Below, piece after piece: positions 4,621 to 14,287 of a DNA stretch of 28,458 bases. Made by a program: the position numbers and the translations under genes. Source of the stretch: a virus; the IMG/VR virus record IMGVR_UViG_3300044846_003701, positions 1 to 28,458 of that record. The stretch is one strand, 5' to 3'. Every line of letters begins with the position of its first letter. Position 1 is the stretch's first letter. The notes beneath the pieces were generated by a model. That model was given only the letters and a program-made list of their open reading frames with translations, did no database searches and had not been told where the DNA came from.

Positions 4621-4627
4621 TATTTAT
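4621..4627 (+). promoter_or_regulatory. TATTTAT motif abutting the start of the 4632 gene
   Basis: TATTTAT ends 4 nt before the ATG at 4632. The stretch TTTATTAGTATG from here into the start codon is identical to that at the start of the 2848-4341 gene. If it is a -10 element, the mRNA would have almost no leader. Confidence 0.4.
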
Positions 4628-7747: not shown

Positions 7748-7773
7748 GGGGGATATTACTCCCCCGTTTTTTT
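7748..7773. terminator. Hairpin with T run after the DUF932 gene
   Basis: GGGGGA / TCCCCC forms a 6-bp G+C-rich stem with a 6-nt loop. The T run (seven T) follows on the plus strand, where it would stop transcription entering the DUF932 gene from the left. On the minus strand, the direction of the neighbouring genes, the stem is followed only by TTTATTG, so termination there may be partial. Confidence 0.6.
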
Positions 7774-8527
7774 ACATTACAGTTTCTGCTAATTCCCAAA
7801 GTTTAGTGTTGATTGTATTTTGTGCGATGATGTTATCAATTTTTCTCATCTTTACATTTTTACCTCGTGTGTTGTTAACACTTACGCCTCCACGAATAAA
7901 CTTTTCTTGTACGGTGTTAAATACTTGCCACAAAGAGTTTCCTTCATCCTCAACTCTGTTTGGTTGTAACAATCCAAGTACTTCCATGTCATTGAATGTT
8001 TTTTCTGTATTGAATCTGATTTTAGCGGATTGTTGTACAAATCGTATTTTTTCATCGTCTGACATTTCTCTTGACATCATTCGACCAACAGATTGTTCAA
8101 TCATTGGTAGTTTCTTTGAAAAGGACTCTGCCAAGCCTTTTACCTCATCAAATGTAAAGTGATTGTGTCTCATAGTAAATCTGTCAGCAACTGACGTTGG
8201 TACAGTCAAACCATTTGAACAAACTAATCTGAACAATCCTGCGCTCAATGAAAACGCCGCTGAACCATTGTGTGAGTTTCGTATAATTGCCTCAACAACA
8301 GTGTCACCAACTTTTGGTAATTCACCATTTCTGAATTTGATTTCGTGAAGTGAGTGAATCCCACGTCCTGTTTGTTTAACAGAAGATACTTGCCATCCCT
8401 CACGATCGAAGAATTCTAAAACTTGGTCTGTTGGTACGAATGTGTATTTGTTAGTCATCTTAGGAGATGGACTAGTTGCAAACACAGAAGGAGCTACGGA
8501 TTTGATAAGTTCTGGTGTGTGAATCAT
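7772..8527 (-). CDS. DUF932 family protein
   Basis: This 251-aa protein fits the DUF932 / phage-plasmid-like family. Residues about 83-114 carry the family core: N-S-H-N-G-S followed by FRLVCSNGLTV, with the conserved VC(S)N(G)L segment. The rest is helical with a run of charged residues. DUF932 proteins are found on plasmids, phages and integrative elements, often close to DNA-processing genes, but their activity is unknown. The gene is a single-gene unit with its own host-type promoter (8554-8584), which suggests expression early after infection by unmodified host polymerase. The G+C content appears somewhat higher than in neighbouring genes. Confidence 0.85.
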   Translation of the reverse strand: MIHTPELIKSVAPSVFATSPSPKMTNKYTFVPTDQVLEFFDREGWQVSSVKQTGRGIHSLHEIKFRNGELPKVGDTVVEAIIRNSHNGSAAFSLSAGLFRLVCSNGLTVPTSVADRFTMRHNHFTFDEVKGLAESFSKKLPMIEQSVGRMMSREMSDDEKIRFVQQSAKIRFNTEKTFNDMEVLGLLQPNRVEDEGNSLWQVFNTVQEKFIRGGVSVNNTRGKNVKMRKIDNIIAQNTINTKLWELAETVM

Positions 8528-8553: not shown

Positions 8554-8584
8554 CAAAGATAGTGTTTTTTTTCAATATTCCAAA
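8554..8584 (-). promoter_or_regulatory. Bacteroidota-type promoter for the DUF932 gene
   Basis: On the minus strand TTTG (8584-8581), a 19-bp spacer and TATCTTTG (8561-8554) match the Bacteroidota housekeeping consensus (TTTG at -33, TAnnTTTG at -7) exactly. The predicted start would leave a leader of about 20 nt before the ATG at 8527. The 15-base core CACTATCTTTGTATT is identical to that of the promoter at 11772-11802. Confidence 0.82.
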
Positions 8585-8888: not shown

Positions 8889-10814
8889 TTAAGATTCACA
8901 ACCATTTCTAACTCTCAACTCCTCTGGAAAATCAACAATAAAGAAATCTTCTGTAGGTGTCATATATTTGTACAATTCTTTTGGTAAGTTCTCAACGTCC
9001 ACACTAGAACCTAATACCGATAGGAAAGTTAAGCAATATAATTTAGATATTGACTTTGGTAACGTAGTTAATTCTTTATTATCTGTTAAATTCACAAAAC
9101 TTAACATTCTACATTCTCCAATAGACTCCGGTAAACTTTTAATTAGATTATCGGCAACCAATGTGTTCAATCCTTTAAATCTTGAAATATTAGACGGTAT
9201 ATCAAAAGGTTGTAGTTTTTCTGATTTGTTTTCTAAATTTATAAATCGGGTTTCTTCTGGTAATATTTCAAACAAGCTATCTAAACCAAACATCATTGCA
9301 TATTTTGCGTGTGCATCATTTGGGAAAGTAATTGGTAGATAATCCATATCCAAATCTTTTTTAACGATTTGTTCTGTATATTTCTTCATGAGTGAATTAT
9401 GGTAAGGTGCCATTTCTCTACTCATAATTAAACTCACATCCGCCTCACTTAATTTTTCGATAGGTGTCAATAATAATGCCTTTCTTTTCTTAGAAAGGTA
9501 ATATCCTTTACTTTCTTCATCAGAATCACTTAACATTTGACCGTTAAGTTTACCGTCTAAACCTATATATTTGTGTCTTAAATATGGTGTGAAATTCCTA
9601 TAAATTTCTTCACCATTTCTAGTTGTAGTCAAATCGGGACTTCTTAGTTCTAACCATAATTCCGCATTTTCTTCTGAACCTAATTCTTTAATGGCGTCTG
9701 ACTCTATGTTTTTTCGTTCAAAAGTCATCATCATCTGTTGTTGTTCTGATGAATACGGGTTTGGTTTGAAGTACTGCTCTTTTCCTCTTAAATTAGGTAC
9801 TTTATCCGTCACTTCACTCCAAGGTATTACTGTTGACCCAGCATATCTTCCTGAGTTTGTTCCATCTGCCAATCTGAATCTTACTTTATTTCCGTAATCA
9901 TAGTCAGTCAAAATCACTACTGCGTAATTCACATCACTTTCTTTCATGTTTTTATTAATAACATAGTAAAGTGTTAAATTTTGTCTTAATCTATAATTGT
10001 AGTAATAATTAGATGACCCTTCCCAAGACGTACACCATCTTCTATCTGGTGCAAATTTCTTACGAATGTTAATGCATTTATGTTTTTGGTCAGGAGCAAA
10101 GATAAGTACATTATCATCTTCGTAAGCTATATCAACATCACTTGTATCTACTTCTGGTAACTTATATTCATCCTTAATTGGTAGTGCATCAACAACGTGT
10201 TCGAACTCTTGGAAATTCATCATCCCCGCAGGTTTTGTGTTAATCGGAACTAAAGGATAGTTTGCTATATACCTATCAACTCTTGTAACTATTTGTTCAA
10301 TGTTTTCGTCAGAATTTTCTTTTACTAATTTAGCGGTCAATTTGTCTTTCAATACATTTTCAAAATCTCTCCTTATCAAAGCATTAAGTTCCATAGAAGT
10401 CATGGACAAAACATCCTTTTCATATCTTCTTTTATCCAAAGCCTTCAATTCAAAAAATTTCTTTAAATTCAATTTAACTAAATTTTTATCAGAACCTTTG
10501 TTTTTCTTAATAAAGTTTTGATATACTTCATTGAAAGTTTTCTTTGCCTTCTGAGCGTCTAATTTTGTTGTTACAAAACTTTTCAATTTTTCATAATCAT
10601 AAGTGAAAATATCCCTTTCATTACCTGGTAATGTATCTTTGAATTTTTCAAAATCTTGTATAATTTGTGTTATCTCTTCCGCTGAGTCTTCAGTATCCCC
10701 TGAGAATTTACCTATCAATTTTTTAACCGTAGATTCTGGGTATTCCAATAAGATGTAACCTCTTTTCTGTTTTGTTTCTTTTACTATTTTAGATAGAATA
10801 TTTACTAACTCCAT
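8889..10814 (-). CDS. 641-aa LRR-containing putative virion protein with targeting-like N terminus
   Basis: The start is placed at the ATG at 10814, giving MELVNILSKIVKE, rather than at an upstream in-frame GTG (10841), because GATATTTAT lies just before this ATG and because the resulting N terminus resembles those of other proteins here (helix ending V-K-E). The middle part has a charged segment with VLIFAPDQKHKC and WCTSWEG (WCTS at about 260-263) followed by a Tyr-rich stretch and alternating beta strands; the domain is unnamed. About residues 530-620 are leucine-rich repeats (LPESIGE, LPKSISK, LPKELYK). LRRs suggest protein binding. I infer an internal or structural virion protein; no enzyme motif is visible. 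Confidence 0.75.
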   Translation of the reverse strand: MELVNILSKIVKETKQKRGYILLEYPESTVKKLIGKFSGDTEDSAEEITQIIQDFEKFKDTLPGNERDIFTYDYEKLKSFVTTKLDAQKAKKTFNEVYQNFIKKNKGSDKNLVKLNLKKFFELKALDKRRYEKDVLSMTSMELNALIRRDFENVLKDKLTAKLVKENSDENIEQIVTRVDRYIANYPLVPINTKPAGMMNFQEFEHVVDALPIKDEYKLPEVDTSDVDIAYEDDNVLIFAPDQKHKCINIRKKFAPDRRWCTSWEGSSNYYYNYRLRQNLTLYYVINKNMKESDVNYAVVILTDYDYGNKVRFRLADGTNSGRYAGSTVIPWSEVTDKVPNLRGKEQYFKPNPYSSEQQQMMMTFERKNIESDAIKELGSEENAELWLELRSPDLTTTRNGEEIYRNFTPYLRHKYIGLDGKLNGQMLSDSDEESKGYYLSKKRKALLLTPIEKLSEADVSLIMSREMAPYHNSLMKKYTEQIVKKDLDMDYLPITFPNDAHAKYAMMFGLDSLFEILPEETRFINLENKSEKLQPFDIPSNISRFKGLNTLVADNLIKSLPESIGECRMLSFVNLTDNKELTTLPKSISKLYCLTFLSVLGSSVDVENLPKELYKYMTPTEDFFIVDFPEELRVRNGCES

Positions 10815-10830
10815 TTCTGTATTTTTATAA

Positions 10831-10839
10831 ATAAATATC
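10831..10839 (-). promoter_or_regulatory. Candidate late-promoter motif GATATTTAT before the LRR gene
   Basis: GATATTTAT ends 16 nt before the ATG at 10814. It argues for that start over the upstream GTG, which would overlap the motif. Confidence 0.45.
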
Positions 10840-10862
10840 ACCTGAGATTAAAAACTTATGAA

Positions 10863-11702
10863 TCAGTAATTCATTAACAAAAGTTCTTCCCCCATATTCT
10901 GTTTTGTCCCTTTTTTTGCTGCTGCGGCTTTGGCAAATTGTTTTCTTTCCCATCTGTATTTATCTTCAGGAAACCATTCGTGAAGTAACTCAAAATCATA
11001 ATACGATAGACTAAATTTTCCTTTTACATTGTGTAATACATTCGCAAGTCTTTCATGGTCTTGTCTATCAAAATCGTGATTTGAATAGTAATTTTCCGTT
11101 TTCCAATACGGTGGATCGACATAAAAATATGTTGTTGGTGAATCATACTTTTTAATGACATCCTCAAAATCCATATTTTCAACATCCGTAATTTTCAAGA
11201 AATGTTCTACCCAATCAGGTTTAGCCAATTTATCTCTAAATGTAAGATATTTTGATTTGTAATTACCTTTCAAGTCAATAAATGAACTTGTTTCAGGTTT
11301 AGAACCACTAAAAACCTGTGTAAGAACATAAGCGTATTTAGCGGCAACTTCATAATTACCAGGTTCTACGCTGAAACCTTCACTAAAAATTTCAGTCTGA
11401 AACCTGATAAACTGTTCTTTATAAATTGGTGGAGTTACTTCTACACCAAATTTCTGACAATCAATTGTGTTAATTGCACTCAATAATTCAGTTGGATTCT
11501 GAATACATTTAAAAAGATTGTAATTGAGTGGATTAAAGTCGTTATAAACAACTTTCTTTAGGTTTGGGAACTGTTTTAAGTCCATGTTAAAAAAACACCA
11601 AAACATCCCTCCAAATGTTTCAACATATGTTTCCATATTATTATCATAGAAAGGGACTATCCACTTTCCAATTTTACTCTTACCTCCGATATAACTTAAC
11701 AT
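10863..11702 (-). CDS. Second Dam-family (D12 class) adenine-N6 DNA methyltransferase
   Basis: This 279-aa protein has the D12 layout: YIGGKSKIG at residues 4-12 (SAM binding), VETFGGMFW at 27-35, and the catalytic DPPYW at 196-200, followed by a Tyr-rich segment. A basic C terminus (KQFAKAAAAKKGTKQ) may contact DNA. It is only distantly related to the methylase at 70-861, so the two probably recognise different sequences or came separately. It is a single gene facing left, next to the repeat RNA region, with no restriction enzyme nearby. Its upstream region (ATAAATATC about 20 nt before the start) lacks a clear TATTTAT or host promoter. Confidence 0.92.
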   Translation of the reverse strand: MLSYIGGKSKIGKWIVPFYDNNMETYVETFGGMFWCFFNMDLKQFPNLKKVVYNDFNPLNYNLFKCIQNPTELLSAINTIDCQKFGVEVTPPIYKEQFIRFQTEIFSEGFSVEPGNYEVAAKYAYVLTQVFSGSKPETSSFIDLKGNYKSKYLTFRDKLAKPDWVEHFLKITDVENMDFEDVIKKYDSPTTYFYVDPPYWKTENYYSNHDFDRQDHERLANVLHNVKGKFSLSYYDFELLHEWFPEDKYRWERKQFAKAAAAKKGTKQNMGEELLLMNY

Positions 11703-11771: not shown

Positions 11772-11802
11772 TTTGGCAGAACCAAAAACTTCACTATCTT
11801 TG
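11772..11802 (+). promoter_or_regulatory. Bacteroidota-type promoter for the repeat RNA
   Basis: TTTG (11772-11775), a 19-bp spacer and TATCTTTG (11795-11802) match the Bacteroidota consensus exactly. The -33 element lies in a small inverted repeat, TTTTGG-CAGAA-CCAAAA (11771-11787), which could be an operator. Transcription should start near 11808. Confidence 0.82.
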
Positions 11803-11835
11803 TATTGTCGATGTAGGTAACACTATTGAAAACAA

Positions 11836-11947
11836 GGATGTCAGTACTCCTAATTAACAATCTGAACGCCTGATGTTGGGTGTGTCAACATAGGATGTCA
11901 GTACTCCTAATTAACAATCTGAACGCCAAGTGTTGGGTGTGTCAACA
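11836..11947 (+). repeat. Two tandem 57-bp repeats
   Basis: Copy 1 spans 11836-11890 and copy 2 11893-11947. The 55-base units differ only at three adjacent bases (TGA versus AAG) after the shared GAACGCC. Both begin GGATGTCAGTACTCC and end TGTTGGGTGTGTCAACA. Weakly similar sequence before copy 1 (from about 11811) and after copy 2 (to about 11973) may be decayed outer copies. The period of 57 is a multiple of three. Confidence 0.95.
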
Positions 11948-11985
11948 CGGGTTGATACCCTCAATTGAATAAATGAAATAATCTA

Positions 11986-12013
11986 AAAACCCTTCCGATA
12001 ATGGAGGGGTTTT
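11986..12013 (+). terminator. Terminator of the repeat RNA
   Basis: AAAACCCTTCC pairs with GGAGGGGTTTT (11 bp with one G-U pair) around a 6-nt loop, followed by TTTTATATTTAT. The TATTTAT motif of the next gene begins right behind it. Confidence 0.8.
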
Positions 12014-12014
12014 A

Positions 12015-12021
12015 TATTTAT
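12015..12021 (+). promoter_or_regulatory. TATTTAT motif before the 12028 gene
   Basis: TATTTAT ends 6 nt before the ATG at 12028 and directly follows the terminator stem, so the gene probably has its own signal rather than relying on the RNA upstream. Confidence 0.42.
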
Positions 12022-12027
12022 AGTAAT

Positions 12028-12519
12028 ATGAAGTTACTATCTTTAATAAAGTCGTTAATAACCGAGGCTAAACAACTAATTGACAGGTACGAAATTGATG
12101 GTCAAAATGTTAGCATATTCTATAACGACCATTCAAATTTAGCTCAAAATTCATCAAAATATGGTAGACAATCAATTGAGGATATAAAAGAATCAATGGT
12201 TGATATTTTAGATGTTATCGTTGAAGTATCTATGGACATACTTAGTTCTCCAAGTAAAGTAAAAGATAAAGACCATTCAATATTGGTTAAGGATCATATG
12301 ATAGGTATTGATTATCATTTTTGGGTTACAACATCCTCAAATGGTGATTTATTTTTAATTATTAATACATCTATTAGTCACCCAAAAAATTTACCGACTA
12401 AAAAAAATGATAAAAAAATAATCATAACTAAAAATGGTGACACAATAATAAAAGAAGGTATCAATCTTAATGTATTTACTAAAATAATCAAAGGTGATAT
12501 TATTATTTATTACAATTAA
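12028..12519 (+). CDS. 163-aa putative packaged protein with targeting-like N terminus
   Basis: The start is placed at 12028 rather than at an in-frame ATG at 12001, because the latter lies inside the terminator hairpin and the TATTTAT motif falls between the two. From 12028 the protein starts MKLLSLIKSLITE, a short amphipathic helix ending in I-T-E, as in T4 internal head proteins. The rest has a helical part (about residues 40-75) and beta strands (YHFWVTTSSNGDLFLIINTS). No family is recognised. The gene at 12532 follows after 12 bp. Confidence 0.7.
   Translation: MKLLSLIKSLITEAKQLIDRYEIDGQNVSIFYNDHSNLAQNSSKYGRQSIEDIKESMVDILDVIVEVSMDILSSPSKVKDKDHSILVKDHMIGIDYHFWVTTSSNGDLFLIINTSISHPKNLPTKKNDKKIIITKNGDTIIKEGINLNVFTKIIKGDIIIYYN
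12504..12510 (+). promoter_or_regulatory. TATTTAT motif before the 12532 gene
   Basis: TATTTAT ends 21 nt before the ATG at 12532 and lies inside the end of the preceding gene, so it may be coincidental (it encodes Ile-Ile-Tyr). Confidence 0.25.
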
Positions 12520-13648: not shown

Positions 13649-14287
13649 ATGAATTATCTAATCGTTCTTTTCAAAAATAAAAAAAGAAAAAAGATTATAA
13701 ACAAATTTGTAAAATCAGATAAAGCCAAAACTTATTTTGATAAACTTAAAAAAGATAGTTTATTGATAAATTTTGAGGTTAAGGTTGAGAATGGAAAAGA
13801 ATGTGTTTATGAATTGGCCTTACTTGAAAGGAACTCATTAGATTTCCAACCGTTATTTGTTAAAGATGAATTGGGTAGACAAGTTGAGATTAATTTAGAT
13901 GATTCAGATTATAAAATAATAGATATATCTTATTACAAAAAAGAAGAAACGGTATTTCATTACAAAACAAAAAATAAAATAAGTTTTGATTTTTTTGTGA
14001 AAAGATTTTTACCAAAAACTGGTTTAAAACTTATATCTAAAATTAATAATAAATTAGTGGTTCAAAACGACGATGTCTTTGAGATATTTTCTTGTAAAAG
14101 TTCTGAAGACTCAGAACGTTTTATTGAGTCTTTAGAAGAGTTTTTAATAGATAATAATAGAATTGATTGTTTAATAGTTAAAGATGTCTCTAAACAACAA
14201 AAAAAATATTTATATGATTTGTTAGAAGAACAAGGTGTAAATAAATCATTTCTTTATAGAACTTCTACGACTTATTTTAGAAAATAA
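13649..14287 (+). CDS. Uncharacterised 212-aa protein
   Basis: No family is recognised. The first 35 residues are very basic (KNKKRKKIINKF), followed by alternating strands and helices and a Ser/Glu-rich helix near residues 148-165. A basic N terminus could bind nucleic acid, but no DNA-binding motif is visible. It is a single rightward gene; its last 42 bp overlap the end of the convergent gene at 14246-14578, so the two mRNAs are complementary there. Confidence 0.66.
   Translation: MNYLIVLFKNKKRKKIINKFVKSDKAKTYFDKLKKDSLLINFEVKVENGKECVYELALLERNSLDFQPLFVKDELGRQVEINLDDSDYKIIDISYYKKEETVFHYKTKNKISFDFFVKRFLPKTGLKLISKINNKLVVQNDDVFEIFSCKSSEDSERFIESLEEFLIDNNRIDCLIVKDVSKQQKKYLYDLLEEQGVNKSFLYRTSTTYFRK

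Follow-up and report, generated by a model that had tools for sequence, protein, structure and literature searches.

A double-pseudoknot RNA and its neighbouring protein gene in huge phages: a possible antitoxin-like pair

Organization of the locus

The window, which is the whole 28,458-nt (28-kb) stretch of phage record IMGVR_UViG_3300044846_003701, carries on its minus strand a D12-class methyltransferase gene (10863-11702; Pfam MethyltransfD12) whose start at 11702 bounds a gap of 325 bp extending to an ATG at 12028. Within the gap are two direct copies of a 57-nt unit on the plus strand, at 11835-11891 and 11892-11948, which are 93% identical. The near-identical units with their 57-nt period, the gap and a terminator had been described in an earlier note, together with a host-type promoter, and these descriptions hold. 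The promoter (11772-11802, plus strand) is of the Bacteroidota type, with TTTG at -33, a spacer of 19 nt (N19), and TATCTTTG at -7. Although sequences of this pattern are not unusual in the window (4 found versus 1.8 expected), the promoter is retained in most homologues at the window-type locus.

Transcription from the promoter would begin at about 11805-11810. A putative small hairpin near the 5′-end of the transcript (11813-11826, plus strand; unscored) pairs GTAG with CTAT, or GTGG with CTAC in relatives, and another, read by eye and likewise unscored, follows the units at 11949-11960 (plus strand) with the pairing GGGT/ACCC (AGGTC/GACCT or GGTT/AACC in relatives). The sequences flanking the array, GTAGGTAACACTAT on the 5′ side and GGGTTGATACCC on the 3′ side, had been suggested as possible decayed partial copies of the unit, which was not confirmed; they look instead like separate small hairpins, which most relatives have too. 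The RNA ends at a predicted intrinsic (Rho-independent) terminator (11986-12013, plus strand), which has counterparts of different sequence in the homologues; two terminators were found in the window versus 0.5 expected.

The terminator is followed by a TATTTAT element (12015-12021, plus strand), putatively a late promoter from which the phage expresses the downstream gene (12028-12519, plus strand), which encodes a protein of 163 aa with the N-terminus MKLLSLIKSLITE. The family alignment indicates that translation probably starts at 12028 and not at 12001. The heptamer is found at window positions 4621, 7375, 10833, 12015, 13618, 17235 and 21135 as well as in related loci, in each case closely 5′ of a start codon; the genes behind it often have L-x-E N-termini, and it may serve as a late promoter throughout this huge-phage group. 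Other features of the surrounding region include a second host-type promoter (TTTGGAATATTGAAAAAAAACACTATCTTTG; 8554-8584, minus strand) upstream of a DUF932 gene (7772-8527), and a 650-aa ORF (8889-10841, minus strand) for which an internal ATG (MELVNILSKIVKETKQ) is a likelier start than the GTG from which it was called; this ATG sits behind a TATTTAT and gives a capsid-targeting-like end. A DnaJ-like phage protein (12681-13604, minus strand) is a stable neighbour of the RNA locus.

A family of structured RNAs

Each unit had been assigned a single hairpin. That last hairpin is real, and so is the compensatory change at its base, from A-T in copy 1 (11873/11891) to G-C in copy 2 (11930/11948); the unit as a whole has four helices, which form two pseudoknots. 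In unit 1 (82 bits with covariance model R1) the first pseudoknot pairs AGGA with TCCT (11835-11838 with 11848-11851) and GTCAG with CTGAA (11840-11844 with 11862-11866), and the second pairs CGCC with GGTG (11867-11870 with 11879-11882) and ATGTTG with CAACAT (11873-11878 with 11886-11891). Unit 2 is predicted to fold in the same way.

Homologous units were found by a DNA pattern, by protein neighbourhood and by model R1, which matches units in related phages in the manner of the covariance search that had been proposed. They occur in about 25 phage contigs, mostly members or relatives of a group of phages of 634-735 kb; the nearest relatives of the methylase in annotated collections are likewise from uncultured phages of this size (LR745206 and LR756501-3). 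A weak covariance-model match in the 634-kb phage LR745206 itself lies inside an apparent coding sequence and was rejected. Homologous loci have one or two units, the window two.

When 14 units are aligned with MAFFT, 95.1% of the predicted pairs are maintained and seven pairs have changed on both sides, and all slid registers are much worse. With 21 distinct units, parsed by hand, 95.2% are paired and nine pairs are double-changed, with compensatory changes in 4/4 helices. None of 2000 shuffles equalled this level of pairing and one of 2000 equalled the number of double-changed pairs; hand parsing may bias the figures toward structure, and the shuffles take no account of how closely the units are related. 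Helix P1 is AGGA/TCCT, or GGGA/TCCC in some units; PK1 is GTCAG/CTGAC, replaced by GTTAG/CTAAC in the branch of G040, G044 and G045; PK2 is CGCC/GGTG, replaced by CACT/AGTG in L162; and P3 has changes at 6/6 pairs. Because covariation covers four helices, the prediction that each unit consists of two consecutive H-type pseudoknots is supported. The whole transcript is also more stable than its shuffles (z -3.1).

An alternative source of conservation is a short coding frame. Unit 2 is open in one frame (MSVLLINNLNAKCWVCQHGLIPSIE), but this mini-ORF is stopped or shifted in L024, L028, L095, L105, L158, L162 and L165, as it is in unit 2 of L001, L054 and L096. In-frame stops and indels among the homologues exclude coding, the frame being interrupted in most of the divergent relatives. 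On these comparative grounds the RNA is a real structured family, and the earlier description of a phage small RNA from a host-type promoter is strongly supported by the covariation and the exclusion of coding. Nothing in the window reached an Rfam gathering threshold, sub-threshold matches falling far under each family's gathering score, and no known riboswitch matched in the window even at lax thresholds. If the antitoxin-like reading given below is right, the locus would add a new structured RNA family that has a clear protein partner.

The downstream protein

The 163-aa protein, whose family is referred to here as A3, gave no match in Pfam, PADLOC or PDB sequence searches, nor did tblastn find it in 50,697 records of named phages; its best viral matches are uncharacterised. 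AlphaFold models of moderate confidence (pLDDT 77 and 68) suggest an N-terminal helix followed by a beta-alpha-alpha-beta-beta-beta core. No significant fold match was found in the PDB, a second structure model likewise giving none. ToxN, RegB and other RNase folds were considered as candidates and rejected; none matched significantly, RegB appearing first at rank 23 with an E value of 0.27.

The capsid-targeting propeptides of phage T4 end in L/I-x-E. They are N-terminal and 10-19 residues long (PMC9026906). The N-terminus of the window protein resembles them, and relatives have comparable ends. Among the fetched loci, L-x-E N-termini are encoded by 133 of 193 genes that start 8-35 nt behind a TATTTAT versus 206 of 722 other genes, an enrichment that counts related genes more than once, so that its p-value is inflated. 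From the promoter element and the N-terminus we infer late expression and packaging into the phage head.

Linkage of RNA and protein

A full-length A3 protein has the RNA beside it in 22/22 records and in the window. The 22 comprise 20 records with an R1 match together with G054 and G055, and form a non-random sample, since records were retrieved by RNA or by protein; nine of them (G040-G048) were retrieved by protein sequence alone, yet carry the RNA. Among 28 other records examined, a strong RNA match was found in G038 and G039 only.

The pair occurs in three arrangements. In the first, which is that of the window, the RNA is next to the methylase and 5′ of the protein gene. In G041, G042 and G048 the intact RNA and protein gene have moved together to a position about 9 kb from the original site, where a C-terminal fragment of the protein gene is all that is retained of it. 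In G040 and G043-G047 the RNA is on the opposite strand and is transcribed toward the protein gene, an arrangement that excludes an mRNA leader there. RNA and protein could share a transcript by read-through in the tandem loci, not in the convergent ones. In the convergent branch (L158/L159 and L165-L167), a short basic ORF (MSKKRGGNPNTSKDGDKEC or similar) comes directly after the RNA promoter.

In the records examined, the RNA is found without the protein, and an intact A-type protein is not found without the RNA. In L145 an internal deletion has reduced the protein gene to ATGAAATTCTAA and the RNA is intact. L105/L107 (G038 and G039) have the RNA and lack the A3 family; their unit lies between genes with capsid-targeting-like N-termini (VNLRESIRKVLREE and MNLKESIKRILKEE) and has no obvious promoter of its own. 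More distant, B-type relatives of the protein are intact in L008, L009 and L067 and have no RNA or host-type promoter nearby. An obligate antidote is therefore not universal in the wider family, and these three loci are the main evidence against one.

At a further set of loci (L035, L055-L058, L061-L068, L205-L217 and others) a different RNA replaces the unit at the same locus. Its core of about 70 nt (ATGGATGATTTGGTACACCATTTAAAAAACGCAAGTCGTGATGTCATC...) is identical in all contigs seen despite differences among the proteins next to it, and similarity of the downstream protein to the A3 family is weak (E 3e-7 to 5e-3). The B-type proteins of L008, L009 and L067 are further relatives of this protein. 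The replacing RNA could instead encode a peptide of 23-32 aa.

Co-divergence of the 3′ unit and the protein

Across 16 loci, the distance between 3′ units follows the distance between the resident proteins (r=0.86, 0/5000 permutations). When the comparison is restricted to the shared locus, the Mantel r with the protein is 0.87, versus -0.03 for the methylase, 0.05 for DnaJ, 0.07 for the gene at 13649 and 0.17 for the gene at 8889; the methylase control is the neighbour on the side away from the protein and is separated from the RNA by about 100 bp. Judging from these distances, the RNA and the protein gene are swapped together, as a single cassette. Part of the co-divergence comes from physical linkage, since selection could act on such an exchange only as a block, and the correlation could arise partly from exchange of linked cassettes rather than from contact between the two molecules. 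A functional bond is nevertheless the simpler reading because the pair is conserved in all arrangements.

The 5′ units behave differently. Each of L001, L054 and L096 has a 5′ unit of the window type, at a distance of 0.05-0.14 from units in loci whose encoded proteins are 60-70% different from the resident one. The fit of the 3′ unit to the resident protein subtype is clear in L054 and L096. Such mixed arrays may simply be remnants of recombination. A more elaborate and rather doubtful idea is that one unit of an array serves the resident protein and the second the protein of a rival allele, in which case the array would confer immunity to effectors that competing phages inject, each effector being delivered in the head and having an RNA antidote.

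Possible functions of the pair

The RNA is quite probably a cognate partner of the protein in some sense. That the two form an antitoxin-like pair, in which the RNA holds the neighbouring protein inactive, is a narrower proposal whose chances we regard as evenly balanced. Under this proposal, host RNA polymerase would make an RNA of about 205 nt with one or two double-pseudoknot units, which would bind the 163-aa protein directly and keep it inactive in the producing cell, much as a type III toxin-antitoxin RNA does. The protein, presumed to be toxic and perhaps a nuclease, would be produced late from its own phage promoter, enter the head through its N-terminal capsid-targeting sequence, and arrive in the next host with the DNA and without the RNA. 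If right, it would be a virion-delivered effector with a phage-made RNA antitoxin, extending RNA-antidote logic from bacterial defence loci to huge-phage cargo; it would also account for one class of proteins packed into phage heads, a class whose function is puzzling even in T4, and suggest a mechanism, open to experiment, by which co-infecting phages compete.

All of the linkage and co-divergence data would fit equally well with a cognate RNA that is not an antidote, for example an aid that brings the protein to the prohead during assembly, or a cargo or cleavage substrate of the protein, and the capsid-targeting-like N-terminus suits such a role. That L145 has kept the RNA although its protein is lost is less expected on that account, and the host-type promoter suggests transcription early, before assembly, so this alternative seems unlikely. 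A cis-acting leader, in which tandem aptamers sense a ligand or a protein and set read-through of the terminator into the protein gene as a riboswitch or attenuator, would account for a terminator immediately 5′ of the ORF in the tandem arrangement and for pseudoknotted modules that look like aptamers. It is quite unlikely given the convergent loci, the TATTTAT element that the protein gene has for itself, the lack of a riboswitch match and an RNA that outlives deletion of the ORF.

The earlier suggestion of a decoy, sponge or riboregulator is not favoured, since co-occurrence, joint relocation and co-divergence tie the RNA to one downstream protein family. Mimicry of a host type III RNA antitoxin, by which the RNA would act as a decoy and shield the phage from the host toxin, has a precedent in the pseudo-ToxI of PhiTE (PMC3475682), and the host-type promoter and the repeat number of one or two are in keeping with it. 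An exact-type pattern search of 84,980 bacterial species genomes yielded 23 matches, all scoring like chance, so no bacterial RNA that might be mimicked was found, and a decoy leaves unexplained why the 3′ unit tracks the phage's own neighbouring protein; we consider it improbable to the same degree as the leader. Antisense control of the neighbouring mRNA was rejected, as cognate duplexes are no better than those with the mRNAs of other loci. An independent trans-acting sRNA (sponge or antisense) that is a mere neighbour in an exchangeable cassette would agree with the presence of the RNA without the protein family in L105/L107; it is very unlikely in view of the unexceptional complementarity to the cognate mRNA, the joint relocation, and a pairing of RNA and protein gene that is conserved over three arrangements.

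Comparison with known systems

The antitoxin-like pair can be set beside several characterized systems. The T4 internal proteins are not known to have an RNA partner. Presence in the mature head and cleavage by the prohead protease are characteristic of them. Those proteins (IPI, IPII, IPIII and Alt) are small, carry an N-terminal propeptide, are packed in the head and are ejected into the host (PMC9026906). The window protein and its relatives share with them a short hydrophobic/basic N-terminal propeptide-like segment ending in L/I-x-E; they are unrelated in sequence, and packaging of the window protein is an extrapolation from that segment. The pseudo-ToxI repeats of PhiTE are similar to an antitoxin encoded at a host locus and act on the toxin of that locus (PMC3475682). 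Both are phage small RNAs with short repeats of variable number (PMC3475682), and differ in that a host counterpart was found for the PhiTE RNA and not for the one described here. The RCd22 RNA of a Clostridioides difficile prophage contains two motifs and neutralises AbiF by direct binding (PMC12373285). As at the present locus, the RNA is carried by a phage, has two conserved motifs and is encoded next to a protein (PMC12373285); AbiF is Abi_2/Cas13-like, whereas the A3 protein has no match.

A type III toxin-antitoxin system has one promoter for both genes and, as its toxin, an endoribonuclease that is toxic alone and is neutralised by the RNA. Such loci have been sought as a tandem array followed by a terminator, before a toxin gene (PMC5086642). 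The locus in the window resembles ToxIN, CptIN and TenpIN in its promoter, tandem pseudoknot units, intrinsic terminator and gene for a protein of about 165 aa, and RNA and protein co-diverge in both (PMC5086642). It has two 57-nt units (one or two in relatives), pseudoknots supported by comparative covariation, and a Rho-independent terminator (11986-12013) between the repeats and the protein gene. It differs in having two pseudoknots per unit and at most two units, in the putative late promoter that belongs to the protein gene, in the occurrence of a convergent arrangement, and in its carriers, which are virulent-looking huge phages. Because the protein has no homology or fold match to ToxN, CptN or TenpN, with their Kid/MazF-like core, the pair does not belong to type III as defined. 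By analogy, a type III toxin-antitoxin pair is nonetheless the closest working model and the one favoured here.
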